Assembly (NCBI GenBank): GCA_022432975.1
Contig: CM039505.1
Location: forward strand, 50,303,897 to 50,367,896
DNA length: 64,000 bases
Direction of reading: 5' to 3'
From: Begonia masoniana
Taxonomy: Eukaryota; Streptophyta; Magnoliopsida; Cucurbitales; Begoniaceae
Shown in pieces: positions 3,501-47,125 of the stretch; positions within the stretch are counted from its first letter, which is position 1, and each line of letters begins with the position of its first letter. A program made the position numbers and the translations under genes. The notes below the pieces were generated by a model. The model was not told where the DNA came from. It worked only from the letters and a program-made list of their open reading frames with translations, and ran no database searches.

Positions 3501-4724
3501 AGGATTACCTATATTGCCGATGCCAACAATCCTGCCCTTTTGGTTTCCACCAAAAGTGACACTGCCCTTTTTCTTGTTGACAACAGCAAACTTGGTTGAG
3601 TCTCCCGTCATATGCCTTGAACAACCACTGTCAAGGTACCACTGATTCTTCCCGGGAGAGCTGTCAAACTCATTCTCGTGTGCCATAAAGCAGAGGTTGG
3701 CAACTTCCTCATCTTCTGAAGAAGAGGTGTCACTTTCACTTTCATCCAAGTAGCCTTCATGGCCTTCTTCTTGAATTTCTTGGGATACTTCTTTGCTTGT
3801 GGACAGTCTGCCTTCATATGACCAGGCTTTCCACACCCAAAGCATGTGATCTCCTTGTCCTTTTGGAACTTCTCACCCTTTGGAAATCTTTTTCCCTGCA
3901 TCCTCTTCCGTTGCAGGAATTTACTGAATCTCCTAGTGATGAGAGCTATATCCTCATCATCTTCCTCTTCTTCATCCTCAGATACTTCATTCTTGCTAGA
4001 GGAGGCTTTCAAAGCAATGTCCTTTTTCCTTGTGACCTCCTTTTCTTTGAGGTCCTCCTTTTCGTTTGCCCTCATTGTGATCTCATGTGTCATGAGAGAT
4101 CCAATGAGCTCCTCAAGCTTTAGAGCTTTGAGATCCTTTGCTTCCTGTATGGCAGTCACTTTTGGCTGCCAACTTCTTGGAAGACATCTGAGGATCTTCC
4201 TGACCCGTTATTCACTAGAGTAAGATTTACCAAGAGCTTTCAAACCATTAGTTATGTTAGTAAATCTGGTAAACATTGAAGAGACAGACTCATCCTTAGG
4301 CATAGAAAATAGTTCATACTCATGTATGAGCATATTCAATTTGCTCTCTTTCACCTGATTTGTGCCCTCGTGTGTGACCTCTAATAGACGTCAAATCTCT
4401 TGAGCGCTTTCACACCCTTGTACTCTATTAAATTCGTCTCTGTTCAGAGCACAGTACAAGGTGTTTATTGCCTTGGCATTTAGGCTCAAGTTCTTTTTAT
4501 CTGTATCATTTAGTTCGTGTGAAGCTTTGGGAGTTCTAATACCGTCTTCTGTTTTAAAAGCTATGTATGGACCATTTTCTATATTATTCCATAGTTCATA
4601 GTCAAAAGCTTGAATGAATATTCTCATTCTAGACTTCCAATAGACATAATCACTCCCATCGAAAAAGGGAGGTCTATTTGTTGCTTGACCTTCTACTAGG
4701 TGTGGTGTTAGTGTTGAATGTCAT
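567..4724 (-). pseudogene. E1 gag-pol, degenerate, lacking the putative intron
   Basis: In reading order this contains gag, one CCHC knuckle ([14 protein letters not shown]), protease (LDSGCS), integrase, reverse transcriptase (YVDDIIFG) and RNase H (AESEYIAAG). Lesions seen: a +1 shift just after the gag start (ATG at 4724); TGG to TGA at 4391-4393; a stop at 4208-4210; a 1-nt deletion near 3747; and CAA to TAA at 1716-1718. The second catalytic Asp of integrase is Asn (2859-2861, SNHSG instead of SDHGG). Unlike E2 and E3, the knuckle region joins pol directly in frame ([14 protein letters not shown]), with no 539-nt segment between. It is either a copy of a spliced transcript or an ancestrally intron-less lineage. 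Confidence 0.85.
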
Positions 4725-5698: not shown

Positions 5699-6450
5699 TG
5701 TAGGATCGGTATTGTCTAAGAGGGGGGTGAATTAGACCTTTTTAAATTTTAATTACTAGTCAACTTAATCTCTCTCCTAGATTGAACTTATAGATTTATC
5801 ACAAGTGATCAGATAATGTAAAGAGAGAGAGAGAGAAATTCGACACCAGTATTTTTACGTGGTTCGGCCAAACTGCCTACGTCCACGCTCCAAGGCTCCT
5901 CCTTGAAGATTCCTTACTTCTCCTCAACGAGAAATCCTGATCGAGCTTTCGGGCGTCGATCCAAAGCCTTTTACACAATACAGGATTGAACTTTACGGGC
6001 GTCAATCCACTGCCTTAAACAAATTTAGAGTTTGTAAAGTTTTGCACAAAAACTACTCTCTCACAGAATCTGAATCTCAAGTTCGAATGTAAGAGGAGAG
6101 TAGTACGATTTACAGAGTATGAATATTTTCGCAAGTTAGGGCTCAGGAATTCAAATCGCAAAAGTTGTTCCTTTGTGCTCTAAGCTCGGCTTTTATACTC
6201 TGTCCATTTTCTGCTTGACTTCAATGCTTCTAAACCAATAATAGAAACTTTGTTACCGTTGGGAAGCATCCGTACAAGTTCAGGTAGCCATTGCCGTTTG
6301 TAGTTGTAAATCGTCGTCGCCATTAATGTTCTGGAGTTATGGCTGAAAATGACGTCACTGTAGCTTCGCGGCTAATTTGAATTCTGGCGGAAGTTCACCG
6401 GTAGATGCAACTAATGAGCGGAGACACGTCATCGGTGAATGCTGCTTGAA

Positions 6451-7290
6451 ATGCCATCGGTAGATATATCCTTGAATTCCATCGGCAGAAGCATCTTCAA
6501 CTTCGATCGGCAGAAGCAATTCGTAAAACTTCATCGGCACATTCTATCTTCAAAGCCATCGGCAGAGAAAGCATGTACTGACTTGACACGTCATCGGCAT
6601 AAGTCTCTTTAAAAACCATCGGCAGATGAACTCATGAAACTTGTCGTCTAGTGATCGGCATGAGCAAGCTTAAAAGCTATCGGCAGAGAAAGCATGTACT
6701 GACTTGACACGTCATCGGCATATGTCATCAAAGACGCTATCGGCAGAGAAAGCATGTACTGACTTGACACGTCATCGGCATATGTCATCAAAGACGCTAT
6801 CGGCAGAGAAAGCATGTACTGACTTGACACGTCATCGGCATATGTCATCAAAGACGCTATCGGCAGAGAAAGCATGTACTGACTTGACACGTCATCGGCA
6901 TATGTCATCAAAGACGCTATCGGCAGAGAAAGCATGTACTGACTTGACACGTCATCGGCATATGTCATCAAAGACGCTATCGGCAGAGAAAGCATGTACT
7001 GACTTGACACGTCATCGGCATATGTCATCAAAGACGCTATCGGCAGATGAACTCATGAAACTTGAAGCCATCGGTTAGATATATCCTTGAATTCCATCGG
7101 CAGAAAGATCTTCAACTTCGATCGGCAGAAGCAATTCGTAAAACTTCATCGGCAATTCTATCTTCAAAGCCATCGGCAGATGTTTCTTTAAAAGCGTCAT
7201 CGGCATAAGTCTCTTTAAAAACCATCGGCAGCTGAACTCATGAAACTTGTCGTTCTAGTGATCGGCATGAGCAAGCTTAAAAGCTATCGG
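6451..7290. repeat. Internal duplication within the E2 3' LTR
   Basis: The module series beginning GCCATCGGTAGATATATCC at 6451 is repeated beginning near 7066 with small changes (GCCATCGGTTAGATATATCC). Each copy continues through the same ordered modules to the GATCGGCATGAGCAAGC block. The 60-bp array lies between the two copies. The E2 5' LTR has only one such series (about 16210-16440). Confidence 0.75.
6676..7046. repeat. 60-bp tandem array in the E2 3' LTR
   Basis: A unit of exactly 60 bp (contains CATGTACTGACTTGACACG and two ATCGGCA cores) is repeated about 6.2 times with no differences seen. A single unit at about 7491-7562 and a partial one at 6562 look like ancestral single-copy forms. 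The E2 5' LTR lacks the array. Open reading frames across it on either strand come from the period being a multiple of three. Confidence 0.9.
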
Positions 7291-7848
7291 CAGGTGTAGG
7301 CGTTGCAATTCCATCGGCAGACGCATCCTTAAATTTCACGGCATGTGCAGCCTTTGGTTATTATCTCTTTTGTCGTTTAGTCAATCGGCAGGAGTAGCTT
7401 CAAACATCATCGGCATACGTGTTCACATAACATCGGCAGATGAAACAAATAAGTACTTTGACACATCATCGGCATCTGTCTTCAGAAACAGCTATCGGCA
7501 GAGAAAGCATGTACTGACTTGACACGTCATCGGCATATGTCATCAAAGACGCTATCGGCAGATGATAACTTCTAAACGGCGTCTTCTTCTGCTTAGCAAT
7601 CGGCAGAGGCTTCCATTTTTTTGATGTATAGTCATCGGTAGAAGCACGCGTTTTACAGCCCTGTTTTTTCTGTTCTGCTCTGTATACTCAAACCGATTTA
7701 TTAGACAACTAAAATACCCTTTTCAAGGGTATTTCCATATAAACTCATATTCATTATTTTCTTTAAATACACATAATCAAATTGTACATTATTTATACAA
7801 ATACATAATCAAAAACAAATTATGACTTAAACAATCTATAAGTCAACA

Positions 7849-8134: not shown

Positions 8135-10336
8135 CTATTTGAAAAGATCTAAATGACGATTCCAAAGAGCTCTCTGGACATAAGAGGGCACGTCACGGTG
8201 GGGATTGAAAAAACCATCCACCAGAGCTTGAAGGAAAGCACGATCTCTTGGGAGAGGCGATTGATAGACCACCATTGCCAGACAGGGAGCAGGAGGTGGA
8301 GAAGGCTCTCGGGACAACTCCACGTCCATGCAAGAAGGAGACTCGACAGAAGGAACAGAGCACACATCCATACAAGGTGGAGGAGAAGCTTTCATTGGAC
8401 AGGCTGGAGGAGAGGAAGATTCAGGAGCTGAGGAAGATGTAGGAAGAGTGAACTTGAGCTCAGCCTCATGAATATCTAGGGGCATGAGACGCACATCTTC
8501 AAAAACAGCAGGCCTGGAAAGGGGAAGAAGCAAGTCTGCAAAGCAGGCCTCGGGATTATTGAGGCCAGAGCATGATGGTTCGGGTTCAGGCTCAGGTTCA
8601 GGTGTCAACGCGGCAATGGACAATTGGAGTTTCTCAAGTTCTCTGACAACCATTCGCCTATCACCATCAATCTTTGTAGACAGCAGGCCAAGACCAGTAT
8701 CCAGAGCAACGCCCATGTCCTGATGATTCTTATCAATTTTACTTTGGAGAGTACTGAGGGCAGTGCCAAGGTTGGTAATAGAGGCTTGCATCTCATTGTA
8801 CTGAGCCTCTGTGAAGGAAAATCTCCTGTGATATGTTATGGGAGTTGCAGGAGTTGCAGGAGTATTGGAGAGAAGGGGTTGGACTGGCAGAGCAATTGGA
8901 GCAGGTTGGACAGGTGATGGAGGGTGCACCTCTTGCTGATCGGGAGATGGATGAGGTGAAGGTTCATGAGTTGGAGATGGAGGTGTTGAAAGTTCATGGT
9001 TTGGAGATGCTGAAGGTGGTTGAACTGGAACTGGAGGAGCCGAAGGTGGTAAGGAAAGAGTAGGTGGAGAGGGAGGTGGAGGAACTGGAGATGGTAGAGC
9101 TGGAGGACCATGAGTGAAAATGGAAGAAATAGCTCGAATTACCGGAGAGATGGAAGGAAAAACAGGCTGAGAAGGTAAGACGAGAGAAGGTGGAGGAGAA
9201 GGAGGCTGTTCAGGAATAGGAAGAGATACAGATGAGGGAGCAGAGGTGGCCTCTGAAATGGGTGCCATGGAGGAGGGAGCAATCCTACGCCTACGCACTA
9301 AAGGAGAAGGTGGGGGGCTTGAATCCTGAGATTGACATACAGTGTCATCTCCTCCTTCAGCAGTTGACTCCTCAGGCAGGATAAGCTTGCGTTTACCACG
9401 CCTGACAGGAACTGCCTTAGAAACCTTTTGCTTAGCCTTATGCAAGGAAGGCTCCCCTTTTCCGATTCTTTTTAGTCCCATCTTGTTGAGAGTGGCTTGG
9501 GAATAATAATTGGAGGGCAGAAGTCGCACAGGCTCTTCCTCCTCAAGAAGGACAACCTCAAGATGAGCAAATAACCGCATAAGAAGCAAATTATACGGTA
9601 AGGATGTAGCCTTAGAGGATACTGCCAAAATCATCCTTCGAACCACAATGTATCCTACATTGAAAGGAGTCTTGAAATAGAGAGCAAATAGAACAAATAG
9701 CTCCATTGCGCTCACCTCATCATAATGTCCACCCTTGGGAACAATATTGAAATCTATCATATGACGAAAAACTTTGGCCCTCGGGGTCAAATGTCTGCCC
9801 TTTAACTGATCAGGAGAAGCATTAGGGTCCAAAGCAATTTCCCTGAGAAACTGTAGACCATCAGAAGTTCCAAAGAAAGGTAGCTCATGGCCTGTCACAT
9901 ATTTATAGGGGCAGCTATCCAAATGAGGAGCTCCCAGAAGAGCATTTATGGACTGAGGGGATATTTCTATGCATTTGTTATATACATAGCTTTTAATGGA
10001 AGGGGGATCAGCAGTAAAGCTAAGATTGGCATAGAACATCCGGATAGCTTCCGGATAGAAGAAGGATTCGGTTTCAAACAATCCTATTAACCCAAGATCC
10101 GTCAAGGGTTCTACAATGTTCATCCCAGCTAAACTTTCAAAATCAATACCTTTACTGGGAATTAATGACCTGAACTGGTAATCGGCATGAAACTTGTTCT
10201 CGGCAGCTTTAGTGAGAAAGTGGAAGGATGGAAACGCATTTGCCCTTGGAATCTCACGAGGAGGGCGATCAGAAACCTTAGCCTTTTTCTTGGCCTGAAC
10301 GGAGATGGCTTGATCTGAAGAACCGATATGCTCCAT
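8135..10336 (-). CDS. E2 ORF3: intact 733-residue protein of unknown function
   Basis: I chose the ATG at 10336 (MEHIGSSDQ) because E1 and E3 ORF3 start at the equivalent place. The frame is open further upstream. Domains seen: a basic N-terminal patch (AKKKAKV); a conserved block of about 220 residues (LTDLGLIGLFETESFF, IRMFYANLSF, SINALLG, PKGGHYDEVSAMEL, GYIVVRRMI) that I assign to the PF20167-type plant transposon domain from memory; a Ser/Pro-rich linker of about 150-200 residues; a heptad-like helical stretch with QSKIDKNHQD and STKIDGDRRM; a PEPEPEPEP tract; and a C-terminal VVYQ...FF..P...W motif also found in E3 and E4. No membrane segment is seen, which argues against a classical envelope. 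Conservation in four elements suggests a real function. Confidence 0.8.
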   Translation of the reverse strand: MEHIGSSDQAISVQAKKKAKVSDRPPREIPRANAFPSFHFLTKAAENKFHADYQFRSLIPSKGIDFESLAGMNIVEPLTDLGLIGLFETESFFYPEAIRMFYANLSFTADPPSIKSYVYNKCIEISPQSINALLGAPHLDSCPYKYVTGHELPFFGTSDGLQFLREIALDPNASPDQLKGRHLTPRAKVFRHMIDFNIVPKGGHYDEVSAMELFVLFALYFKTPFNVGYIVVRRMILAVSSKATSLPYNLLLMRLFAHLEVVLLEEEEPVRLLPSNYYSQATLNKMGLKRIGKGEPSLHKAKQKVSKAVPVRRGKRKLILPEESTAEGGDDTVCQSQDSSPPPSPLVRRRRIAPSSMAPISEATSAPSSVSLPIPEQPPSPPPSLVLPSQPVFPSISPVIRAISSIFTHGPPALPSPVPPPPSPPTLSLPPSAPPVPVQPPSASPNHELSTPPSPTHEPSPHPSPDQQEVHPPSPVQPAPIALPVQPLLSNTPATPATPITYHRRFSFTEAQYNEMQASITNLGTALSTLQSKIDKNHQDMGVALDTGLGLLSTKIDGDRRMVVRELEKLQLSIAALTPEPEPEPEPSCSGLNNPEACFADLLLPLSRPAVFEDVRLMPLDIHEAELKFTLPTSSSAPESSSPPACPMKASPPPCMDVCSVPSVESPSCMDVELSREPSPPPAPCLAMVVYQSPLPRDRAFLQALVDGFFNPHRDVPSYVQRALWNRHLDLFK

Positions 10337-10696
10337 TGAAAGATTAGGAATCGAGAAAGAGGGTTGGTAGGGCAGGGGGGATTTTCTCTCAGAAAGAGCG
10401 CAAAATGAAATGTCTTCGAGAAGACACATAGTTTAAACAAAGAAGGGGCATCGCTCGACGCGAGGGAGACACACGTGTAGAACGGATAGGCATGATGAAC
10501 CACACGTGTCGGCAGATTAACAATACATCTTCCGATGCTTACAGATACTATGCATCTGCCGATACCTACCGGTATCAAGACATCTGCCGATGACAAAAGA
10601 GAGGTACAGCATCTACCGATGCTATCACAGAAGGAGAAGCTCTAACACTTAAGAATTTTTTTTTTTTTTTTTTTTTTTCATAACAGAGACAGAATC
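10337..10696 (-). promoter_or_regulatory. E2 pol-ORF3 spacer, two G-boxes and an oligo(dT) run
   Basis: CACGTG occurs at 10472-10477 and 10503-10508, about 135-170 bp upstream of the ORF3 ATG, in ACACGTGT contexts shared with E1 and E3. A run of T on the plus strand lies at about 10657-10679. The role as an ORF3 promoter is inferred. Confidence 0.35.
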
Positions 10697-13600
10697 TCAT
10701 TTTCTCTCAACCCGAATGAGACCTAACCTTATTCTAATACTATTGAATGTCTTCTCATCCAAAGGCTTGGTAAAGATGTCTGCAAGTTGATCTACAGAAT
10801 TGACAAACTCTAAAGAAACATCTCCTCTTTGAACATGATCTCTAATGAAATGATATCTGACATCTATATGCTTTGTTCTAGAGTGTTGAATAGGATTTTT
10901 AGAGATGTTTATGGCACTGGTGTTATCACACCGAATAGGAATCCTATCATAAAATAGATTATAATCTTCCAAAGTTTGTTTCATCCATAACATTTGTGCG
11001 CAGCAACTGCCAGCAGCAATATATTCACTTTCAGCAGTTGATAGTGCGACAGAATTTTGTTTCTTAGAATACCAGGAAACTAGAGATTCACCAAGGAATT
11101 GACATGTTCCACTGGTGCTTTTCCTATCCACTAGACTACCTGCATAATCAGAATCTGAGTAGCCAATCAGATCGAAAGAAGTACCTTTTGGATACCATAA
11201 ACCTAAGTCAGGAGTTCCACTTAAATACTTAAAGATTCTTTTGACAGCAGTTAAGTGAGATTCCTTAGGGGCAGCCTGAAATCTAGCACAGAGACACACA
11301 CTGAAAAGAATATCTGGTCTGCTTGCAGTCAGATATAGCAAAGATCCAATCATACCACGATATTTCTTAATGTCTACACTGATTCCTTTTTCATCTTTAT
11401 CCAACTTAGTAGTGGTGCTCATAGGAGTCTTAGAAGATTTGACAGTTTCTAATCCGAATTTCTTAAGGAGTTCCTTAATGTATTTTTCTTGACAGAAGAA
11501 AATTCCATCAGGAGATTGATTAATCTGGAATCCTAAGAAGAACTTTAACTCCCCCATCAAACTCATTTCAAATTCACTCTGCATGAGGGAAGAAAACTCA
11601 TTACACATATTGACATTAGTTGAGCCAAAAATAATGTCATCGACATAAATTTGAACCAACAGAATGTCCTTCTCCTTTTGCATGGTAAACAGAGTTGAAT
11701 CAGAGTTACCCTTTTTGAAATTCCTTTCCTCAAGGAAATTCTTCAATCTGTCATACCAAGCTCTAGGAGCCTGCTTAAGTCCATACAGAGCTTTCCTAAG
11801 CTTGTACACATGATCGGGTTTGTCAAAAGATTCGAACCCTAAGGGTTGCTCAACAAAAACTTCTTCATTTATGAAACCATTTAAAAATGCACTCTTTACA
11901 TCCATTTGAAAGAGTGTGAAGTTCTTGTAGCAGGCAAAAGCTAGAAGCATCCTAATTGATTCCAATCTAGCAACAGGGGCAAAAGATTCCTCAAAATCAA
12001 TACCCTCTTCTTGAGAGTACCCCTTAGCAACCAGTCTAGCCTTGTTCCTTATTACAATCCCATTTTCATCCAATTTATTCTTAAAGACCCACTTAGTTCC
12101 AATAATGGGATGAACCGTAGGCCTCGGAACAAGTTCCCATACCTTGCTCCTTTCAAATTGATTTAGCTCCTCTTGCATAGCTAAAATCCAATACTCATCA
12201 TTCTCGGCCTCTTCAAACTTCTTAGGCTCTACTTGAGAGATAAATGTCACATTGGCACAAAGATTCCTAAGAGAGGATCTAGTCTTAACACCTAGTGATG
12301 GATCACCTAAGACTTCATCTAATGGATGATTTCTAACATATTTCCAATCTCTAGGGAGAGTAGGATTTTCATCCTTGACAGGAATTATACCTTGAGATGT
12401 AGAAGAAGGTTCAAAAGATTTTTCTGCTTGAGAGGGATCAGTAGGTTTTTCTAAGGAAAGAGAATCCAGTTGATAATTCAAAACACCATCCTCATCCACA
12501 TTTATTGTGGGCTGAGGGGACTCATCAAAGTTGACATGAACGAATTCCTCTACAACTAGGGTTCTCCTATTGAAAACCCTATATGCTTTACTGGACAGAG
12601 AATAACCAAGAAAAATTCCAATATCAGATTTGGAATCGAATTTTCCTAAGTTATCCTTAGTATTGAGAATGAAGCATTTACTGCCAAAGGCTCTAAAATA
12701 CTTGACAGAAGGAGTTTTTCCACTCCAGAGCTCATATGGAGTTTTCTCTAGGATAGGTCTTATGGAGACCCGATTAAGTACATAACAGGCTGTTGCTACA
12801 ACTTCGGCCCAGAAATACTTAGGAAGGGAGTTTTCATTAAGTATAGTCCTAGCAAGCTCTTGAAGGGATCTATTCTTCCGCTCAATAACTCCATTTTGCT
12901 GAGGGGTCCTAGGAGAAGAGAAATTGTGCTCAATTCCATACTTGAGACACAGGAGTTCAAATTTCTCATTTTCAAACTCTCCACCATGATCACTACGAAT
13001 AGCAACAATGGTGAGCTCCTTTTCATTTTGAACTCTTTTCCTAAAACTAGAAAAGGTGTCAAAGGTTTCATCCTTAGACTTCAGAAAATGAACCCAAGTA
13101 AATCTAGAAAAATCATCAACAATGACGAATGCATAGAATTTTCCTCCTAGACTGGCTATGTTGGAAGGACCGAAGAGGTCCATATGAAGGAGTTGGAGAG
13201 GCTTAGAAGTAGAAATTGCATTCTTAGATACAAAGGAACTTTTGATCTGCTTGCTCATTTGACAAGCTTCACAGACTTTATCCTTTTCAAAGGATATCTT
13301 AGGAATACCTCTAACTAAGTTCTCCTTAGTAATCTTAGCTAAGGTATCTATCCCTACGTGTCCTAATCTTCTATGCCAGATCCAACCGTCAATAGAAGAA
13401 TTCACAGCAAAACATTTTTCAATACTACAATCAATATCATCAATGTCAATGACATAAATATTTTCTTTCCTAAAACCAGTAAAGAGAATTTTGCCATTTG
13501 CAGCATCTTTAATTATACATGAATCTGATTTGAATATTACTTCATAACCTTTGTCACATAATTGACTAATGCTAAGTAGATTATATTTTAACCCATCAAC

Positions 13601-15391
13601 TAATAAAACATTTTCTATAACAGGATTGATAGGGTTACCTATGTTGCCAATGCCAACAATTTTGCCCTTTTGATTTCCACCAAAAGTGACACTTCCTTTC
13701 TTCTTGTTGACAACAGCGAACTTAGTTGCATCTCCAGTCATATGCCTTGAACAACCACTGTCCAGGTACCACTGATTTTTTAGAGGAGATGCATTATCCT
13801 GCAACACAGAAATTAGGTTGTCTTCTTAGGTACCCAAATCTTTTGGGTCCTAGTGTTAGGCCTGGTTCCTTTAGGAACCCATTGTAACTTACAACCATCT
13901 TTCTTGCCATTTGTTTTTAGTGGGCATACAAAGGACTTATGTCCTACTTCATTACACTTATGACATACAGTAGATTTAACAAAGAAATTCTTAAAAGCTT
14001 TCTTTTTATTAGACTTGTCATATCCTAATCCTGTTCTGTCAAAATTTGCTCTCTGACCTCCTATTATCATCTTAAATAATTTTTCGCCCTTGGTGAAGTT
14101 CAGAATGATATTATTCAGATCTTCGTTTTTGCTTTTAAGCTCATCAATTTCCTTGACATGCAAGTCTACTTCTTTAGCATGTTTTTCTAATAGATCTGTA
14201 TTCTCCTTTTTCAACAGATTGTATTTATTTTTCAGCATGTCCAAACTGTTTAACTAAGTCATTAAAGGCGTCAATTATTTTACCTTCTTCATCATCACTA
14301 TCACTATCACTAGATACATTTGAAGAAGAAGTACTAACCTTTTTCTCGAGTGCTATAAAGCACAGGTTTGCTACTTCCTCATCTTCTGATGAAGAGGCGT
14401 CTTCTTCACTATCATCCCAAGTGGCCTTCATTGCCCTTTTCTTAAACTTCTTGGGATACTTCTTTGCTTGTGGACAATCTGCCTTCATATGTCCAGGCTT
14501 TCCACACCCAAAGCACGTGATTTCCTTTTCCTTTTGAGACTTTTCACCTTTCGGAAATTTCCTTCCTTGCAGTCTTTTCCTTTGGAGAAATTTACTGAAC
14601 CTCCTGGTGATGAGTGCAATATCCTCATCATTATCTTCCTCTTCTTCAGAGTCATCTTGCTTACTTGATGAGGCTTTGAGTGCAATGTCCTTTTTCTTGC
14701 TGATCTCTTTCTCCTTGAGATCTTCCTTCTCATTGGCTCTCATTGTAATCTCGTGAGTCATGAGAGATCCAACGAGCTCTTCAAGTTTAAGAACCTTCAG
14801 ATCCCGAGCTTCTTGAATGGCGGTCACTTTAGGTTGCCAAGCTCGTGGAAGGCATCTCAAAATTTTCCTGACTAGTTCTTCACCTGTATACATCTTACCA
14901 AGAACTTTTAATCCATTAGTAATATTAGTGAATCTAGTAAACATAGAAGATATGGACTCATCCTTTTCCATGGAGAACAATTCATACTCATGAACAAGCA
15001 TGCTTAATTTGCTCTCTTTAACTTGGTTTGTTCCCTCATGAGTTACTTCTAATAAATGCCAGATTTCCTGAGCACTATCACACCCCTGAACTCTGTTGAA
15101 TTCATCACGATTTAGAGCACAGTATAGGGTGTTAATGGCTTTGGCATTTAGACTCAAGTTCCTCTTGTCGGACTCAGTTAAATCAGCAGAGACCTTGGGA
15201 ACACTTTTGCCATCTACAGTTTTCATGGCACTAAATGGACCATATTCTATAATGTTCCATAACTCATAGTCCATGGCTTGAATGAATATTCTCATTCTCG
15301 CCTTCCAGTAAACATAATCACTGCCATCGAATAGCGGTGGCCTAGAGATGGACTGACCCTCAATGTGTGAGGAGTTTGAGTTGAATGCCAT
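10697..15391 (-). CDS. E2 Gag-Pol polyprotein, predicted spliced form (join 15391-14339, 13798-10697)
   Basis: Exon 1 (351 codons) encodes the gag N-terminal region and one CCHC knuckle ([14 protein letters not shown], about residues 290-305). Exon 2 (1033 codons plus stop) encodes protease (LDSGCS), integrase with an HHCC-type zinc domain (H..LGH, CEACQ) and D,D-35-E residues ([22 protein letters not shown]), reverse transcriptase (YVDDIIFG) and RNase H ([11 protein letters not shown]). The join is in phase 0 and gives 1384 residues with no stop. The donor AAG/GTTAGT and acceptor TTGCAG/GA fit plant consensus. Without splicing, pol has no ATG and is in a different frame from gag. The homology calls are solid; the splice is inferred from E1, which lacks this segment. 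Confidence 0.75.
13799..14338 (-). other. Putative coding intron of E2 (540 nt)
   Basis: It has GT at 14338-14337 and AG at 13800-13799, with CCTAAT (branch-like) about 18 nt before the acceptor and a pyrimidine-rich lead TTTCTGTGTTGCAG. It contains the gag C-terminal part with the second knuckle ([14 protein letters not shown]) and the gag stop at 13813-13815, 14 nt before the acceptor. E3 has the same arrangement with 539 nt. The extra base in E2 lies near 14239. Confidence 0.55.
13813..15391 (-). pseudogene. E2 gag, unspliced reading, +1 frameshifted
   Basis: The ATG at 15391 (MAFNSNSSH) opens a 388-codon frame that ends just after an extra base near 14239 (GT where E3 has C). The remaining 143-residue part continues in another frame to a stop at 13813, with a Lys/Glu/Leu-rich helical stretch ([17 protein letters not shown]) and the second CCHC knuckle. 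In E3 the same region is one frame of 529 residues. The lesion lies inside the putative intron, so it would spoil only unspliced Gag and leave the spliced Gag-Pol intact. Confidence 0.75.
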
Positions 15392-15454: not shown

Positions 15455-16598
15455 TGTAGGATCGGTATTGTCTAAGAGGGGGGTGAATTAGACCTTTTTA
15501 AATTTTAATTACTAGTCAACTTAATCTCTCTCCTAGATTGAACTTATAGATTTATCACAAGTGATCAGATAATGTAAAGAGAGAGAGAGAGAGAAATTCG
15601 ACACCAGTATTTTTACGTGGTTCGGCCAAACTGCCTACGTCCACGCTCCAAGGCTCCTCCTTGAAGATTCCTTACTTCTCCTCAACGAGAAATCCTGATC
15701 GAGCTTTCGGGCGTCGATCCAAAGCCTTTTACACAATACAGGATTGAACTTTACGGGCGTCAATCCACTGCCTTAAACAAATTTAGAGTTTGTAAAGTTT
15801 TGCACAAAAACTACTCTCTCACAGAATCTGAATCTCAAGTTCGAATGTAAGAGGAGAGTAGTACGATTTACAGAGTATGAATATTTTCGCAAGTTAGGGC
15901 TCAGGAATTCAAATCGCAAAAGTTGTTCCTTTGTGCTCTAAGCTCGGCTTTTATACTCTGTCCATTTTCTGCTTGACTTTAATGCTTCTAAACCAATAAT
16001 AGAAACTTTGTTACCATTGGGAAGCATCCGTACAAGTTCAGGTAGCCGTTGCCGTTTGTAGTTGTAAATCGTCGTTGCCATTAATGTTCTGGAGTTATGG
16101 CTGAAAACGACGTCACTGTAGCTTCGCGGCTAATTTGAATTCTGGCGGAAGTTCACCGGTAGATGCAACTAATGAGCGAAGACACGTCATCGGTGAATGC
16201 TGCTTGAAATGCCATCGGCAGATATATCCTTGAATTCCATCGGCAGAAGCATCTTCAACTTCGATCGGCAGAAGCAATTCGTAAAACTTCATCAGCACAT
16301 TCTATCTTCAAAGCCATCGGCAGATGTTTCTTTAAAAGCGCCATCGGCATAAGTCTCTTTAAAAACCATCGGCAGATGAACTCATGAAACTTGTCGTCTA
16401 GTGATCGGCATGAGCAAGCTTAAAAGTTATCGGCAGGTGTAGGCGTTGAATTCCATCGGCAGACGCATCCTTAAATTTCACCGCATGTGCATGCTTTGGT
16501 TATTATCTCCTTTTGTCGTTAGGTCAATCGACAGGAGTAGCTTCAAACATCATCGGCAATACGTGTTCACATAACATCGGCAGATGAAACAAATAAGT
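15455..16598 (-). repeat. E2 5' LTR, outer end missing
   Basis: It aligns with the E2 3' LTR from TGTAGGATCGG (15455) to GATGAAACAAATAAGT (about 16598). After that point the 3' LTR continues with ACTTTGACACATC, whereas this copy switches to the TTTACTCATCCGCC array. The terminal segment and CAACA end proper to E2 are therefore absent here. Confidence 0.7.
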
Positions 16599-19500
16599 TT
16601 TACTCATCCGCCTTGTCGTTTAGTGACCGGTGGACTCAGGCATTTTACTCATCCGCCTTGTCGTTTAGTGACCGGTGGACTCAGGCATTTTACTCATCCG
16701 CCTTGTCGTTTAGTGACCGGTGGACTCAGGCATTTTACTCATCCGCCTTGTCGTTTAGTGACCGGTGGACTCAGGCATTTTACTCATCCGCCTTGTCGTT
16801 TAGTGACCGGTGGACTCAGGCATTTTACTCATCCGCCTTGTCGTTTAGTGACCGGTGGACTCAGGCATTTTACTCATCCGCCTTGTCGTTTAGTGACCGG
16901 TGGACTCAGGCATTTTACTCATCCGCCTTGTCGTTTAGTGACCGGTGGACTCAGGCATTTTACTCATCCGCCTTGTCGTTTAGTGACCGGTGGACTCAGG
17001 CATTTTACTCATCCGCCTTGTCGTTTAGTGACCGGTGGACTCAGGCATTTTACTCATCCGCCTTGTCGTTTAGTGACCGGTGGACTCAGGCATTTTACTC
17101 ATCCGCCTTGTCGTTTAGTGACCGGTGGACTCAGGCATTTTACTCATCCGCCTTGTCGTTTAGTGACCGGTGGACTCAGGCATTTTACTCATCCGCCTTG
17201 TCGTTTAGTGACCGGTGGACTCAGGCATTTTACTCATCCGCCTTGTCGTTTAGTGACCGGTGGACTCAGGCATTTTACTCATCCGCCTTGTCGTTTAGTG
17301 ACCGGTGGACTCAGGCATTTTACTCATCCGCCTTGTCGTTTAGTGACCGGTGGACTCAGGCATTTTACTCATCCGCCTTGTCGTTTAGTGACCGGTGGAC
17401 TCAGGCATTTTACTCATCCGCCTTGTCGTTTAGTGACCGGTGGACTCAGGCATTTTACTCATCCGCCTTGTCGTTTAGTGACCGGTGGACTCAGGCATTT
17501 TACTCATCCGCCTTGTCGTTTAGTGACCGGTGGACTCAGGCATTTTACTCATCCGCCTTGTCGTTTAGTGACCGGTGGACTCAGGCATTTTACTCATCCG
17601 CCTTGTCGTTTAGTGACCGGTGGACTCAGGCATTTTACTCATCCGCCTTGTCGTTTAGTGACCGGTGGACTCAGGCATTTTACTCATCCGCCTTGTCGTT
17701 TAGTGACCGGTGGACTCAGGCATTTTACTCATCCGCCTTGTCGTTTAGTGACCGGTGGACTCAGGCATTTTACTCATCCGCCTTGTCGTTTAGTGACCGG
17801 TGGACTCAGGCATTTTACTCATCCGCCTTGTCGTTTAGTGACCGGTGGACTCAGGCATTTTACTCATCCGCCTTGTCGTTTAGTGACCGGTGGACTCAGG
17901 CATTTTACTCATCCGCCTTGTCGTTTAGTGACCGGTGGACTCAGGCATTTTACTCATCCGCCTTGTCGTTTAGTGACCGGTGGACTCAGGCATTTTACTC
18001 ATCCGCCTTGTCGTTTAGTGACCGGTGGACTCAGGCATTTTACTCATCCGCCTTGTCGTTTAGTGACCGGTGGACTCAGGCATTTTACTCATCCGCCTTG
18101 TCGTTTAGTGACCGGTGGACTCAGGCATTTTACTCATCCGCCTTGTCGTTTAGTGACCGGTGGACTCAGGCATTTTACTCATCCGCCTTGTCGTTTAGTG
18201 ACCGGTGGACTCAGGCATTTTACTCATCCGCCTTGTCGTTTAGTGACCGGTGGACTCAGGCATTTTACTCATCCGCCTTGTCGTTTAGTGACCGGTGGAC
18301 TCAGGCATTTTACTCATCCGCCTTGTCGTTTAGTGACCGGTGGACTCAGGCATTTTACTCATCCGCCTTGTCGTTTAGTGACCGGTGGACTCAGGCATTT
18401 TACTCATCCGCCTTGTCGTTTAGTGACCGGTGGACTCAGGCATTTTACTCATCCGCCTTGTCGTTTAGTGACCGGTGGACTCAGGCATTTTACTCATCCG
18501 CCTTGTCGTTTAGTGACCGGTGGACTCAGGCATTTTACTCATCCGCCTTGTCGTTTAGTGACCGGTGGACTCAGGCATTTTACTCATCCGCCTTGTCGTT
18601 TAGTGACCGGTGGACTCAGGCATTTTACTCATCCGCCTTGTCGTTTAGTGACCGGTGGACTCAGGCATTTTACTCATCCGCCTTGTCGTTTAGTGACCGG
18701 TGGACTCAGGCATTTTACTCATCCGCCTTGTCGTTTAGTGACCGGTGGACTCAGGCATTTTACTCATCCGCCTTGTCGTTTAGTGACCGGTGGACTCAGG
18801 CATTTTACTCATCCGCCTTGTCGTTTAGTGACCGGTGGACTCAGGCATTTTACTCATCCGCCTTGTCGTTTAGTGACCGGTGGACTCAGGCATTTTACTC
18901 ATCCGCCTTGTCGTTTAGTGACCGGTGGACTCAGGCATTTTACTCATCCGCCTTGTCGTTTAGTGACCGGTGGACTCAGGCATTTTACTCATCCGCCTTG
19001 TCGTTTAGTGACCGGTGGACTCAGGCATTTTACTCATCCGCCTTGTCGTTTAGTGACCGGTGGACTCAGGCATTTTACTCATCCGCCTTGTCGTTTAGTG
19101 ACCGGTGGACTCAGGCATTTTACTCATCCGCCTTGTCGTTTAGTGACCGGTGGACTCAGGCATTTTACTCATCCGCCTTGTCGTTTAGTGACCGGTGGAC
19201 TCAGGCATTTTACTCATCCGCCTTGTCGTTTAGTGACCGGTGGACTCAGGCATTTTACTCATCCGCCTTGTCGTTTAGTGACCGGTGGACTCAGGCATTT
19301 TACTCATCCGCCTTGTCGTTTAGTGACCGGTGGACTCAGGCATTTTACTCATCCGCCTTGTCGTTTAGTGACCGGTGGACTCAGGCATTTTACTCATCCG
19401 CCTTGTCGTTTAGTGACCGGTGGACTCAGGCATTTTACTCATCCGCCTTGTCGTTTAGTGACCGGTGGACTCAGGCATTTTACTCATCCGCCTTGTCGTT

Positions 19501-19649
19501 TAGTGACCGGTGGACTCAGGCATTTTACTCATCCGCCTTTGTCGTTTAGTGACCGGTGGACTCAGGCATTTTACTCATCCGCCTTTGTCGTTTAGTGACC
19601 GGTGGACTCAGGCATTTTACTCATTCGCCTTTGTCGTTTAGTGACCGGA
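16598..19649. repeat. 45-bp satellite array, about 67 units
   Basis: A unit of 45 bp (TAGTGACCGGTGGACTCAGG, then CATTTTACTCATCCGCCTTG, then TCGTT) repeats with no difference seen for 64 consecutive periods from 16621 to 19500. It then continues as about three 46-bp units with an extra T (CGCCTTTGTCG) and decays at 19649. Because 45 is a multiple of three, two plus-strand frames stay open for about 1000 codons with a 15-residue period. These are not genes. A diverged short version is present in the E3 LTR (46610-46925). Confidence 0.95.
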
Positions 19650-25678: not shown

Positions 25679-25799
25679 GATGGAGATTTGCTGGAAATTT
25701 AGAAACCACTTTCCATTGAAAGCCATGAAATTGCAGACACCATATTTGTAGACAGACAGAGACAGCTCTAAATAATTGATTCTGTATTCATATTATTAT

Positions 25800-27239
<1,440 letters not shown>

Positions 27240-37612: not shown

Positions 37613-38006
37613 TGTAGGATCGGTATTGTCTAAGAGGGGGGTGAATTAGACTTTTTAATTTTAATTACGAGTCACCCTAATTTCTCCCTTGATTAAACTA
37701 TTAGTTTTAACACAAGTAATCAAATTATGTAAACAGAGAGAGAGAGAAATACGACACCAATATTTTTACGTGGTTCGGCCAAACTGCCTACGTCCACGCT
37801 CCAAGGCTCACTCCTTGAAGATCCTTACCCTTCTCCTCACGAGAAAACACAGATCGGGATTCCAGGCTCCGATCAACTGCCTTTACAGATCTGGATTGAA
37901 CTTCACGGGCGTCAATCCACTGCCTTTTACAAATGATTTGAGTTTGTAAAATTAAGTACAGACTACACTCTCACAGTAATTGAATCTCATTTTTTTTTTT
38001 TTTTTT
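37613..38006 (-). repeat. E3 3' LTR, truncated by the assembly gap
   Basis: It starts TGTAGGATCGGTATTG and follows the 5' LTR almost base for base to TTGAATCTCA. It then runs into a T homopolymer and the N run. The 5' LTR continues there with AGTTAGGATTG, so the T run may be a sequencing or assembly artefact. Confidence 0.85.
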
Positions 38007-40707: not shown

Positions 40708-40991
40708 TGGAGAAATGCTGCGAAGATGACCTAGTGAGAAAGGGTTGGCGATAGAGAGTTTACTGAAAAAGGGCGCGAAATATGAAGCGTTTCGAAGAAG
40801 AAACCGAGTTTAAAAGAGAGAGAACCACGCCCGACATGATGAAATCACACGTGTAATACTGATATTGTCCGATTGATGACACGTGTCGACAGATTAGAAA
40901 ATATATCATCCGGTCAGTGGATGATGAATTTCTCTTCCGGTGAATAGTAAACGTACCGGATGAGAAACATATAGAAAAACCTTAACTTCTC
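40708..40991 (-). promoter_or_regulatory. E3 pol-ORF3 spacer with two G-boxes
   Basis: CACGTG at 40847-40852 and 40879-40884 (the latter within the palindromic TGACACGTGTCGACA), about 140-177 bp upstream of the ORF3 ATG. Position and context are conserved with E1 and E2. Internal promoter activity is inferred. Confidence 0.35.
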
Positions 40992-43900
40992 TTAACAATT
41001 CTTATATTCGAGAAGACCTAGTCTTATTCTAATACCACAGAAGGTTTTCTCATCCAACGGTTTTGTGAATATATCTGCCAATTGGTCGACATAATTAACA
41101 AACTCTAAAGAAATATCACCTCTTTGAACATGATCTCTAATAAAGTGATATCTGACATCTATGTGTTTTGTTCTAGAGTGCTGAATTGGATTCTTGGAAA
41201 TATTAATTGCACTGGTGTTATCACACCGAATAGGAATCCTATCATAAAACAGATTGTAATCTTCCAAAGTCTGTTTCATCCAAAGCATTTGTGCACAACA
41301 ACTGCCTGCAGCAATATATTCACTCTCAGCAGTTGACAATGCAACAGAGTTCTGTTTCTTAGAATACCAAGACACTAGAGATTCTCCTAAAAACTGACAA
41401 GTGCCACTTGTGCTCTTCCTATCAATTAGACTACCAGCATAGTCAGAATCAGAATATCCTACCAGATCGAAAGAAGTACCTTTAGGATACCATAATCCTA
41501 AGTTAGGAGTTCCACTTAAATATTTAAAAATTCTTTTGACAGCAGTTAAGTAAGATTCCTTAGGAGCAGCCTGGAATCTAGCACAGAGACAAACACTAAA
41601 GAGTATATCTGGTCTACTAGCAGTCAAGTATAACAGAGAACCAATCATACCACGATATTTCTTAATATCAACACTAATACTTTTTTCATCTTTGTCCAAT
41701 TTGGTTGTGGTACTCATTGGAGTTCTAGAGGATTTGACAGATTCTAATCTGAATTTCTTAAGAAGCTCCTTAATGTATTTTTCTTGGCAAAAGAAAATTT
41801 CATCAGGAGATCGACAGATTTGAAATCCTAAGAAGAACTTCAACTCCCCCATCATACTCATTTCAAATTCACTTTGCATGAGGGATGAAAACTCATTACA
41901 CATTTTGACATTAGTAGATCCAAAAATAATGTCATCGACATAGATTTGAACCAACAAGATGTCCTTATCCTTTTGCATGGTAAATAGAGTTGAGTCGGTG
42001 TTACCCTTTTTAAAATTCCTTTCTTCAAGGAAGTTCCTCAACCTATCATACCAAGCTCTAGGAGCTTGCTTAAGTCCATAAAGAGCCTTCTGAAGTTTAT
42101 ACACATAATCAGGTTTTGCAAAATCTTCAAATCCTAAGGGCTGTTCTACATAAACTTCTTCCTGAATATAACCATTTAAGAAAGCACTCTTCACATCTAT
42201 TTGGAAGAGTGTGAAGTTTTTGTAGCAGGCATAAGCTAGAAGCATCCTAATTGACTCTAATCTAGCAACAAGTGCAAAGGTTTCCTCAAAATCTATTCCT
42301 TCTTCTTGATTGTAACCTTTAGCAACCAGTCTAGCCTTATTTCTAACCACAATCCCATTTTCATCTAATTTGTTTTTGTAAACCCATTTAGTTCCAATGA
42401 TGGGATGATCCTTAGGCCTTGGAACAAGTTCTCATACCTTGTTCCTTTTAAATTGATTTAACTCTTCTTGCATGGCCAAAATCCAATTATCATCACTCTC
42501 GGCCTCTTCAAACTTCTTAGGCTCTATATGTGAAATGAATGCCACATTGGCACAGAGATTCCTAAGAGAAGCTCTAGTCTTAACTTCTAAAGAAGGATCA
42601 CCTAAAACTTCATCTATTGGATGGTTTCTGACATATTTCCAATCTCTAGGAAGATCAGGATTTTCATCCTTGACAGGAATAATATCTAGAGAAGTAGAAG
42701 AGGGTTCTAAAGATTTTTCTTCTTGAGTGGGATCAGAGGGTTTTTCTAATGAAAGAGAGTTCAGTTGATTATCCAAAGAATCATCGTCAACCACATTGAT
42801 TGTAGGTTGAGGGGACTCATCAAAGCTGACATGAACAGATTCCTCTACAACTAGAGTTCTTCTATTGAATACTCTATAGGCTTTACTAGACAGAGAATAA
42901 CCAAGAAAAATTCCAAGATCAGATTTGGAATCGAATTTTCCTAAGTTATCCTTAGTATTAAGAATGAAACATTTACTTCCAAAAGCTCTAAAATACTTAA
43001 CAGAAGGAGTTTTTCCATTCCAAAGCTCATATGGAGTTTTCTCAAGAATAGGTCTTATTGAGACCCGATTAAGCACATAACAGGCTGTTGCAACAGCTTC
43101 AGCCTATAAATACTTAGGAAGAGAATTTTCATTAAGCATAGTCCTAGCAAACTCTTGGAGAGATCTATTCTTCCTCTCAACAACACCATTTTGCTGAGGG
43201 GTCCTAGGAGAAGAGAAGTTGTGCTCAATTCCATACTTGAGACACAAGAGTTCAAATTTCTCATTTTCAAATTCTCCACCATGATCACTACGAATAGCAA
43301 CAATGGTGAGCTCCTTTTCATTTTGAACTCTTTTCCTAAAACTAGAAAAGGTATCAAAAGTCTCATCCTTAGACTTCAGAAAGAATACCCAGGAGAATCT
43401 AGAGAAGTCGTCAACAATGACAAAAGCATAGAATTTTCCACCTATACTAGCTACATTGGAAGGACCGAAGAGGTCCATGTGGAGAAGTTGGAGAGGCTTG
43501 GAAGTTGACATTGCATTCTTCGATGCAAAGGAACTTTTGGTCTGCTTACCCATTTGGCAAGCATCACAGACCTTATCCTTTTCAAAGGATATCTTAGGGA
43601 TTCCTCTAACTAAGTTCTCCCTAGTAATCTTAGCTAAAATATCCATCCCTACATGACCTAATCTCCTATGCCAAATCCAAGAATCATGGGAAGAATTAAC
43701 AGCAAAGCATTTTTCGTTCACATGCTCAATAACATCCATGTCAATAATATAGATATTTTCTTTCCTATAGCCAGTGAACAGAGTTTTGTCATTAGATGTA
43801 TCTTTAATTACACATGAGTTTGATTTAAAGATCACCTCATAACCTTTATCACATAACTGGCTAATACTAAGGAGATTATGCTTTAAACCTTCAACTAATA

Positions 43901-44093
43901 GAACATTTTCAATGGTAGGATAAAAACTGTTACCTATATTGCCGATGCCAACAATTTTGCATTTTTGGTTTCCACCAAAAGTGACACTCCCTTTCTTTTT
44001 GTTGACAGCAGCAAACATGGTTGAGTCTCCTGTCATATGCCTCGAACATCCACTGTCGAGGTACCACTGGTTCTTTCCAGGAGAGCACTCAAC

Positions 44094-44632
44094 CTGCAAG
44101 ACAGAATTCAATTGGTCTTCTTAGGTACCCAAATTTTTTGGGTCCTAGTGTTAGTCTTGGTTCCTTTAGGAACCCACTGTAACTTGCTACCTGGTTTCAT
44201 ACTGTTTGTTTTTAAAGGACATATGAAGGACTTATGTCCTACTTCATTACATGTATGGCAAGTAGCCGGTTTGACAAAGAAATTCTTAAAAACTTTTCTC
44301 TTATTGAACTTGTCATAGCCTAAACCTGCTTTATCATGAGTAGCTCTATGATTCCCTATTAGTAAAGTTAAGTTCTTGCTACCATTTGAGAACCATAGAA
44401 CAAGTTTATTCAAAGACTCATTTTTCTTTTTAAGTTCAATAATTTCCTTCTCATGCAGGTCTACTTCTTTAGCATGCTTTTCCAATAAATCTGTATTATC
44501 CTTTTTCAACAGATTGTATTTAGTTTTCAGCATCCCAAACTGTTTAACTAAGTCATTAAAAGCATCAATTAGTTCATCTTCTTCATTATCACTATCGTTA
44601 TCACTTAAAATATTTGAAGAAGAAGTACAAAC
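44094..44632 (-). other. Putative coding intron of E3 (539 nt)
   Basis: Donor AAAAG/GTTTGT (44632) and acceptor TTCTGTCTTGCAG/GT (44094). Length is 3n+2, so removal shifts pol into the gag frame, giving HEEK/VECSPGKNQW. The gag stop at 44108-44110 lies 14 nt before the acceptor, exactly as in E2. It encodes the coiled-coil-like part and second zinc knuckle of Gag when retained. Confidence 0.55.
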
Positions 44633-45697
44633 CTTTTCCTCGTGTGCCATGAAGCACAGATTTGTAACTTCCTCATCTTCTGAAGAGGAGGTGTCACCTT
44701 CACTGTCATCCCAAGTGGCCTTCATAGCCTTCTTCTTGAACTTCTTGGGATACTTCTTTGTCTGTGGACAGTCTGCCTTCATATGGCCCGGCTTTCCACA
44801 TCCAAAGCAGGTGATTTCCTTGTCTTTTTTAGACTTCTCACCCTTTGGAAATCTTTTTCCCTGCATCCTTTTCCGTTGCAGGAATCTACTGAATCTCCTA
44901 GTGATGAGAGCTATATCCTCATCCTCTTCTTCTTCTTCTTCTTCCTCAGACAGATCTTGTTTACTTGAGGAGGCTTTCATTGCAATATCTTTTCTTTTTG
45001 AAGCCTCTCTCTCCTTGAGATCTTCCTTCTCGTTTGACCTCATCGTGATCTCATGAGTCATGAGAGATCCAAGGAGTTCCTCAAGTTTTAGAATCTTGAG
45101 ATCCTTTGCTTCCTGTATGGCAGTCACCTTTGGCTGCCAGCTTCGTGGAAGACACCTAAGAATCTTCCTGACCTGTTCTTCACAAGAATATGATTTACCA
45201 AGAGCTTTTAAGCCATTGGTAATGTTAGTAAACCTTGTAAACATAGAGGATATAGATTCATCTTTTGGCATAGAAAATAACTCATACTCATGTACTAGCA
45301 TATTTAATTTACTCTCTTTTACCTGATTTGTTCCCTCGTGGGTAACCTCTAATAAGTGCCAAATTTCTTGGGCACTTTCACACCCTTGTACCCTATTAAA
45401 TTCATCTCTATTTAAGGCACAATACAAGGTGTTAATCGCCTTAGCATTAAGGCTCGGATTTCTCTTATCTGACTCAGTTAGATCAGTGGAAATCTTAGGG
45501 ACACTTTGGCCATCTACAGTATTCATGAGTTTAAATGGACCATATTCAATAATGTTCCATAGCTTATAGTCCATGGCTTGAATGAATATCTTCATTCTTG
45601 CTTTCCAGTAAACATAATCACTCCCATCAAAGAAGGGAGGCCTATTTGTAGCTTGACCTTCTCCGTGTGTGGAGTTAGTGTTGAATGTCATTGCCAT
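44108..45697 (-). CDS. E3 Gag, unspliced form, intact (529 residues)
   Basis: I chose ATG 45697 (MAMTFNTNSTHGEG); no ATG precedes it in frame. N-terminal region typical of SIRE-type Gag ([40 protein letters not shown]). Knuckle 1 ([14 protein letters not shown]) is followed by an acidic tract (SEEEEEEEEDED lies before it), then a Lys/Leu/Glu helical segment ([19 protein letters not shown]) and knuckle 2 ([14 protein letters not shown]), and a basic tail ending WVPKKTN. It would form the structural particle; the second knuckle and helical part would be missing from spliced Gag-Pol. Confidence 0.85.
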   Translation of the reverse strand: MAMTFNTNSTHGEGQATNRPPFFDGSDYVYWKARMKIFIQAMDYKLWNIIEYGPFKLMNTVDGQSVPKISTDLTESDKRNPSLNAKAINTLYCALNRDEFNRVQGCESAQEIWHLLEVTHEGTNQVKESKLNMLVHEYELFSMPKDESISSMFTRFTNITNGLKALGKSYSCEEQVRKILRCLPRSWQPKVTAIQEAKDLKILKLEELLGSLMTHEITMRSNEKEDLKEREASKRKDIAMKASSSKQDLSEEEEEEEEDEDIALITRRFSRFLQRKRMQGKRFPKGEKSKKDKEITCFGCGKPGHMKADCPQTKKYPKKFKKKAMKATWDDSEGDTSSSEDEEVTNLCFMAHEEKVCTSSSNILSDNDSDNEEDELIDAFNDLVKQFGMLKTKYNLLKKDNTDLLEKHAKEVDLHEKEIIELKKKNESLNKLVLWFSNGSKNLTLLIGNHRATHDKAGLGYDKFNKRKVFKNFFVKPATCHTCNEVGHKSFICPLKTNSMKPGSKLQWVPKGTKTNTRTQKIWVPKKTN

Positions 45698-45762: not shown

Positions 45763-47125
45763 TGTAGGATCGGTATTGTCTAAGAGGGGGGTGAATTAGA
45801 CTTTTTAATTTTAATTACGAGTCACCCTAATTTCTCCCTTGATTAAACTATTAGTTTTAACACAAGTAATCAAATTATGTAAACAGAGAGAGAGAGAGAA
45901 ATACGACACCAGTATTTTTACGTGGTTCGGCCAAACTGCCTACGTCCACGCTCCAAGGCTCACTCCTTGAAGATCCTTACCCTTCTCCTCACGAGAAAAC
46001 ACAGATCGGGATTCCAGGCTCCGATCAACTGCCTTTACAGATCTGGATTGAACTTCACGGGCGTCAATCCACTGCCTTTTACAAATGATTTGAGTTTGTA
46101 AAATTAAGTACAGACTACACTCTCACAGTAATTGAATCTCAAGTTAGGATTGAGAGATGTAGAGAAAATACAGAGTATTATCACTTTCGCAGCTTAGGGC
46201 TCAGTATTCAAATTTGCAAAAGTTGTTCCTTTGAGCTCTAATCTTGGCTTATATACTCTGTCTTTTAAATCGGCATGACTTCAATGCTCCTTATCCAATA
46301 ATAGAAGTTTAGTTACCGTTGGAGCAGCTTTCGTACAAGTTCAGGTAGCCGTTGCCGTTTGTAGTTGCAAATCGTCGTCGCCATTAATGTTCTGGAGTTA
46401 TGGCTGAAAACGACGTCACTGTAGTTTCGCGGCTAATTTGAATTCTGGCGGAAGACAAAGCTGATTTAGTCTTGAACCGCCATCGGATGATGCAACTTAA
46501 GAATCTTGAACCGGCATCGAATGAAAAAGCTTTAAACACTTGAACCGGCATCTGATGATGAAAGCTTTACACTCTTGACCCGGCATCGGATGATTGATTC
46601 GTAGTTGTCTTCCGCCTCTATCGTTTAGTGACCGGAAGAGTAATTTGTTGAAGTCATCCGCCTTTGTCGTTTTGTGGCCGGAAGAGCAATTTAATTTACT
46701 CATCCGCCTTTGTCGTTTAGTGGCCGGAAGAGTAATTTGGTTTACTCATCCGCCTTTGTCGTTTAGCGAGCGTAGGACTTCTTCGTGTTAGCTCATCCGC
46801 CTTGTCGTTTAGCGAGCGGTGGAGTATTTCTGTTTACTCATCCGCCTTGTCGTTTTGTGACCGGTGGACTGAGTCTTGTAAACGACTCCGCTCTTGTCGT
46901 TTTGTGACCGGTGGACTTAGTTATTTTGTTTGGCACATTTCAGCCATGTGCACTTAATCACATGCATTAGATACTAAAATACCCTTACCAAGGACATTTC
47001 CAACAGATTAAAATCATATGCATAGTTTATAATTCTTATTCAATAAATATAATCAAATTACCAAGCTAATCATATAAACACATCATCAAAAACAATTTAG
47101 ACTTAAAACACCATTTAAGTCAACA
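45763..47125 (-). repeat. E3 5' LTR (1363 bp)
   Basis: TGTAGGATCGG to AAGTCAACA. The middle contains CCGGCATCGGATGA-type modules, then a run of diverged 45-50-bp modules. It is the shortest complete LTR of the family here and probably closest to the unexpanded state. Confidence 0.9.
46610..46925. repeat. Diverged 45-50-bp modules in the E3 5' LTR
   Basis: Six or so modules of the type TCATCCGCCTTTGTCGTTTA followed by GTGGCCGGAAGAG or GTGACCGGTGGACT, each different. This is the apparent ancestor of the homogeneous 45-bp array at 16598-19649. Confidence 0.8.

Follow-up and report, generated by a model that had tools for sequence, protein, structure and literature searches.

Exitrons are protein-coding alternative introns of plant genes, in which coding sequence flanked by splice sites is either kept or removed. 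The proposals made for Pol expression in Sireviruses reportedly go back to Gao et al. 2003. Sireviruses are abundant in plants, and Pol production in many of them is listed as unsolved (PMC2829016; PMC5009743). In many, pol lies out of frame with gag, and internal entry or bypass has been proposed (PMC2829016); one subset has a pol-frame stop 10 nt past the gag stop, and its puzzles are described as awaiting resolution (PMC5009743). An inverted repeat is reported at the Sirevirus gag/pol border (PMC2829016; PMC5009743), and an extra open reading frame (ORF) 3' of pol in 74% of SIRE elements (PMC6317226). Plant LTR elements are generally intron-less, with Ogre and EVADE as the exceptions given in a review (PMC12786077), and short-Gag isoforms occur in sunflower and triticale long reads (PMC7730604; PMC7765848). 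Passages of PMC3599292 and PMC3414828 do not name gag-pol splicing for Sireviruses, nor do those of PMC2533021 for its Copia families, one of which has gag and pol as two ORFs. Sirevirus gag-pol splicing was also not found in titles and abstract openings under partial literature coverage, which does not establish its absence from print.

We analysed a 64,000-nucleotide stretch of Begonia masoniana DNA (hereafter the window), which holds three Ty1/copia elements, E1, E2 and E3, all on the minus strand. Their assignment is based on copia-type gag and reverse transcriptase (RT), the order Gag-protease-integrase-RT, and LTRs, as indicated by Pfam and LTR comparison. Exon 1 of E2 (14339..15391, supported by Pfam matches on the E3 homologue) runs from the gag ATG to zinc knuckle 1 and an acidic tail, and exon 2 (10697..13798, by translation and Pfam) is a pol open up to its stop, with Pol_BBD, gag_pre-integrs, rve, SH3 and RVT_2 in sequence (protease-like, integrase, RT). 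The E2 LTR cores lie at 5699..7454 (3') and 15455..16598 (5'), with 97.3% identity between 5699-6686 and 15455-16436. The unspliced Gag ORF of E3 (44108..45697) matches Retrotran_gag_2 and zf-CCHC, contains two zinc knuckles and ends in IWVPKKTN before its stop. This Gag has ~530 aa and two CCHC motifs; the SIRE/Sirevirus lineage is marked by a large gag with CCHC motif(s) together with a coiled coil. An extra ORF after pol, another mark of that lineage, is present: proline-rich ORFs follow pol in E2 (8135..10432, minus strand, 765 codons, Pfam PF20167) and E3 (38350-40809). The pol exon of E3 (40992..44093) contains two in-frame stops, and E1 is a broken copy with gag stops and a frame change ahead of its junction. 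As the E2 Gag is also frame-broken, the argument rests on the family rather than on any one of the three elements.

Several further features of the window were recorded. Two pieces of the E3 LTRs, 37613-37989 and 45763-46141, are 99.2% identical over 379 nt, so the insertion of E3 is recent despite the two stops in its pol. A long tandem array (16541-19595), with a 15-codon unit in its translations, adjoins the E2 5' LTR, and related sequence at 46608-46927 adjoins an E3 LTR, so the array may have grown within LTR sequence. From 20559 to ~22660 a tandem repeat with a 25-nt period leaves all three forward frames long and open, and a TA-type simple repeat of ~600 bp occupies 25776-26398.

The two exons of E2 are separated by a 540-nt segment (13799..14338, minus strand; AAAAAG/GTTAGT ... 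TTTCTGTGTTGCAG/GAT, slashes marking the boundaries), which contains the Gag tail, knuckle 2 and the gag stop. The corresponding segment of E3 is 539 nt long (44094..44632, minus strand; GAAAAG/GTTTGT ... TTGAATTCTGTCTTGCAG/GTT), identified by its ends and splice ranks. The segment thus starts with GTTAGT in E2 and GTTTGT in E3, and both finish with TTGCAG. The family gag stop, TAA at 13813..13815, stands 17 nt before the acceptor, stop codon included; this distance is 17 nt in 23 open-gag rows of the copy set and in L070, L073 and L074, and 18 nt in L075. The limits and lengths of the segment, its GT-AG ends, the stop-to-acceptor spacing and the phase-0 join of the exons are all as in the original prediction. 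An unspliced Gag with two knuckles had been predicted as well: the gag frame is open to the family stop in 23 of 35 rows (E3 included, with E2 present twice, as E2 and L001), but E2 itself cannot make such a Gag, since a 1-nt length change within the segment puts knuckle 2 (13924..13965, minus strand) out of frame and Gag halts after FGHAEK.

The segment is itself coding and constrained, as in an exitron. Read in the gag frame, it gave dN/dS values of 0.17-0.25 in 13 of 15 pairs (6 copies; dS > 0.1), and 0.12 and 0.32 in the two near-identical pairs. Values for exon 1 were excluded since the comparison was ungapped and some pairs were misaligned. T-richness was tried as an intron mark and rejected: the segment is richer in T than the gag exon but not clearly richer than the pol exon (27-29% vs 28-30%). 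Inside the segment, just upstream of the acceptor region, lies a hairpin-forming sequence (GGACCCAAAAGATTTGGGTACC, 13829..13850, minus strand), which may correspond to the inverted repeat described at the Sirevirus gag/pol border.

Gag and pol stand in more than one frame relation within the family. In open-gag rows of the E2/E3 type, pol is always -1 to gag with a 13-nt overlap. In L075, ~5 kb past the window end, the intron measures 546 nt, with an extra base following the gag stop, so that this copy reads gag-TGA-pol in a single frame; its donor, acceptor and phase are unchanged. With a gap-tolerant query of 300 aa from a natural intron-less copy (150 residues per side of the junction), at least 54 rows among the matches listed align without a change of frame between query residues 86-88 and 300, passing a single TGA, like the copy in L075. 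In translation, the first ATG of Pol sits 3' of the protease DSG codons, which refines the earlier statement that pol lacks an ATG of its own.

The ends of the segment have the character of a spliceosomal intron, with GT-AG termini and a good donor and acceptor. We scanned 6.1 kb of L003 and L029 with approximate plant donor and acceptor matrices. By these matrices, donor and acceptor ranked 1 of 317 and 1 of 471 in L003, 1 of 306 and 1 of 459 in L029, 3 of 235 and 1 of 381 in E3, and 3 of 80 and 1 of 159 in L068. More distant copies with a 524-nt intron have the donor GAG/GTTAGC or GAG/GTAAGC. The acceptor of L067, L068 and L070 reads TGTTTTGCAG/GTTGAC, and weaker acceptors are seen in L069 (TTTTGTAG) and L074 (TTTTGGAG). 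Separately, L003, L029 and E3 all have a second high-scoring donor-like site 2195 nt past the donor, where further splicing is possible.

Some genomic copies lack the segment. E1 is one of them, its junction reading GAGAATGAG/TTTGACAGC (3659..3680, minus strand, boundary 3669/3668). Its 14 junction residues align without gaps to the predicted spliced products of E2 and E3, as had been noted; E1 has TTT where its sister L032 has GTT. With a junction query taken from E1 (150 of 8853 candidates scored), all 34 junction-spanning rows among the top rows, E1 included, have the exact splice-site join. Fixed anchors are 27 nt apart in all 34, vs 566 nt in copies with a 539-nt intron. The set is biased, because the junction query picked it. 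The exon ends vary among these copies (GAAAAG, GATAAG, GACAAG, GATGAG or AATGAG; GTTGAC, GTTGAG or GATGAT), so the 34 rows are not one copy repeated; nor are they 34 events, as L037 and L038 are near-identical neighbours. Both sides of the junction are open for 200 codons in 14 of the 34.

The gap-tolerant query (110 of 19904 candidates scored) returned 26 spanning rows among the matches listed, all 26 at known loci and with no other ends; genomic minus query length ranged from 0 to -12 nt, always in multiples of 3. A sample chosen instead by likeness to E2 pol contained no intron-less copy among 29 evaluable of 30 loci. Pattern searches over the 795-Mb assembly (308 contigs) found the exact-junction pattern at 29 places and the acceptor pattern at 1730, with 0 and 0 for the reversed-pattern controls. 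The known set accounts for 26 of the 29; the others are C2:38797950, which may be unrelated to the family, C5:38384644 and C9:13721657. The original prediction had named ragged deletion ends in other intron-less copies as the outcome that would speak against an intron, and had called for a count of copies and breakpoints. Instead, the join was exact in 34/34 rows of the junction-query set, and the second query brought no other breakpoint.

Together with the splice signals and the frame relation of L075, these exact joins lend support to the reading of the segment as an intron. It is very probably a spliceosomal coding intron, or exitron, of a Sirevirus-type Ty1/copia family, whose unspliced RNA would give Gag and whose spliced RNA would give Gag-Pol. 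Unspliced RNA, read to its stop, would yield the long Gag with two zinc knuckles. Removal of the intron would join exon 1, that is Gag through knuckle 1, in phase 0 to protease-integrase-RT-RNase H, and the resulting Gag-Pol would carry Pol in place of the Gag tail and knuckle 2. Partial splicing would then set the ratio of Gag to Gag-Pol. An occasional spliced RNA could be reverse transcribed and inserted, leaving an exact intron-less copy; under splicing, the intron-less copies would be the genomic trace of such events. The model predicts two Gag forms that differ in RNA-binding and assembly domains. From the DNA we infer splicing in RNA, its partial efficiency and the use of its products.

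The intron might be truly spliced while Gag-Pol is made by another route, with splicing acting as a brake or having no more than by-product status. Such a role is conceivable in that the analysis proceeds from DNA, the junction pattern makes up 29 of 1759 pattern places, and EVD keeps its unspliced RNA for Gag-Pol (PMC8892269). We nevertheless consider it unlikely: neither frameshifting nor readthrough suits both frame types, the copies read are joined in phase 0, and no pol ATG stands ahead of the active site.

Loss of the segment without splicing has also to be weighed. In GTT-type lineages AGGTT occurs both at the donor and in exon 2, and a deletion mediated by this repeat could therefore yield the same product. 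Deletion between such short direct repeats, or RT jumping, might have occurred once or a few times and then been spread by recombination. The number of losses was assessed on trees of gag and pol. The first gag tree (60 rows) has 6 plus/minus changes, 6 of them forced, and the first pol tree (60 rows) has 3, of which 2 are forced; these first trees contained long-branch rows, and for pol only the first-tree rows were used. A second gag tree of 51 rows has at least 12 plus/minus changes, 8 forced by supported branches (bootstrap 11-13). It includes 20 chosen intron-plus rows, some covering under half of the columns; L001 and L031, which duplicate E2 and E1, are left out, as are L012, L022, L025, L038, L040 and L043; L071 is without the exon-1 anchor.

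On the 51-row tree, supported intron-less/intron-bearing sisters are L047/L029, L048/E3, L033/L066, L035/L067+L068, L037+L052/L073 and L034/the E2 group. The cleanest pair, L047 (minus) vs L029 (plus), is 99.4% identical on each side, over the 991 nt that end at the donor and over the 632 nt that start at the acceptor. In some copies, however, the nearest relatives of gag and of pol differ: L048 and E3 are 98.5% identical in gag and 91.9% in pol. This mismatch makes recombination between elements likely, and the gag-tree count may therefore overstate independent losses. As the pol tree needs just 3 changes, losses may have been few and spread by recombination. At least two plus/minus changes are forced on either tree. 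The DNA thus shows that more than one lineage has lost the segment exactly, just as it shows the anatomy of the segment and the constraint on its coding sequence.

Deletion between repeats would fit the shared AGGTT and the mere 2 changes forced by the pol tree. Direct repeats of at least 5 nt near both places, however, number 102 in E3, 105 in L029 and 111 in L003, some of them longer, and yet all recovered products use the one donor-acceptor pair. In L003, which is of the GAT type, that pair is without a repeat of at least 5 nt, and yet GAT-type losses exist (L045, L046, L058). As splice sites, the two members of the pair also rank first or close to it. We give deletion little credence, less than by-product splicing.

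A further alternative is that Gag-Pol arises when ribosomes shift to the -1 frame, or hop, within the 13 nt over which gag and pol overlap, the GT-AG pair being incidental. The constant -1 offset in open-gag E2/E3-type rows and the hairpin adjoining the overlap would suit it, and recoding or bypass has been proposed for Sireviruses (PMC2829016). However, the X XXY YYZ slippery heptamer was not found in the E2 overlap codons (CCT AAG AAG ACA ACC TAA), and the offset is not constant, so a -1 programmed frameshift cassette was rejected. Because L075 has gag and pol in frame with each other, separated by a TGA, -1 frameshifting cannot serve this copy, where the splice sites and phase are unchanged although the frame relation differs. 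Frameshifting and readthrough each fit one frame type and splicing fits both, which favours splicing over recoding. Intron length modulo 3 was rejected as a discriminator, as all open-gag E2/E3-type rows are 2 mod 3; L075 did discriminate. Frameshifting also leaves the 34/34 exact joins unexplained, and we regard it as very improbable.

An ancestral intron-less form, with later gain of the segment, is barely credible: both forms exist, but other plants' Gags have knuckle 2 and share the C-terminal end, and on the gag tree the intron-less copies sit at tips between intron-bearing copies.

The Gags of other plants were collected as relatives of E3 Gag among candidates of 0.55-1.75 times the query length (597 found), a limit by which the list favours Gag-sized proteins. 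Among the 120 of 597 matches listed, 66 have a WVPK-like motif, and the chain ends at most 6 residues from it in 57 and at most 30 in 64. A protease motif occurs in only one of these 66 (P0113), whose WLPK is an internal chance match. Ten Gags, taken from this window and elsewhere, all keep the second knuckle and the WVPK motif. Of 38 readable Gags of other plants, 26 have E-V or K-V at the donor with N, S or T as the next residue, which fits AG/GTNA. No relative was found among viral contigs.

Fifteen proteins among the matches listed reach the protease motif: 7 from Fagus, 5 from Citrus and 1 each from Manihot, Cicer and Tripterygium. Ten of the 15 have the homologous join, namely six from Fagus (P0051, P0054-P0057, P0095), Manihot P0113, and Citrus P0101, P0106 and P0111. 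Fagus P0052 uses the same donor with another acceptor, and the donor lies further 3' in Citrus P0058 and P0083, Cicer P0003 and Tripterygium P0071. As these 15 are annotated proteins, they may reflect predicted splicing, real splicing or intron-less copies, which are not distinguishable here.

The coding intron is a candidate answer to the published recoding puzzle of the Sirevirus gag/pol border. We lean slightly towards the broader view that, throughout the flowering plants, Pol of Sireviruses is expressed through excision of a coding intron running from after knuckle 1 to just past the gag stop. The shell would then be built of two-knuckle Gag, the Gag part of Gag-Pol would be shorter and lack both the tail and knuckle 2, and the hairpin would tune splicing rather than ribosomes. 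If this view is true, a puzzle open since 2003 would be closed, and Ty1/copia would join the elements that make Gag-Pol by splicing.

Among described systems, Sireviruses (SIRE/Maximus) combine a large Gag bearing a zinc knuckle and a coiled coil with a gag/pol frame break, a border inverted repeat and frequently an extra ORF after pol (PMC2829016; PMC5009743; PMC6317226); the present family has a large Gag with zinc knuckles, a frame break and the extra ORF, and its hairpin may be the counterpart of the repeat. Pol expression in Sireviruses is ascribed to an unknown recoding, internal entry or bypass (PMC2829016), passages of these papers do not name gag-pol splicing for them, and the pol frame is +1 in the Sireviruses of PMC5009743 but -1 or 0 here. 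Unlike the exitrons of plant genes, the segment carries a stop codon and would toggle between two proteins of a mobile element. BARE1, EVD/ATCOPIA93 and Drosophila copia are also Ty1/copia elements in which optional splicing near the gag/pol border tunes Gag vs Pol, but in the opposite direction, with unspliced RNA giving Gag-Pol and spliced RNA giving Gag only (PMC3735527; PMC8892269). Short-Gag splicing of this kind was rejected for the present family, in which the join runs in phase 0 into pol. In Ogre elements, an optional intron is removed from a subset of transcripts to give the whole polyprotein (PMC6317226). Ogre, however, belongs to Ty3/gypsy, and its intron lies between gag-pro and rt-rh-int, where the separating region averages 274 bp (PMC6317226). 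An Ogre-type element was rejected here on the copia-type domains and their order, and on the position of the intron before protease. The original prediction had called splicing to make Gag-Pol a different use of splicing; this holds in comparison with BARE1, EVD and copia, but Ogre already splices in the same direction. The present intron differs from that of Ogre in that it codes for the Gag C-terminus with its second knuckle and sits between gag and protease.
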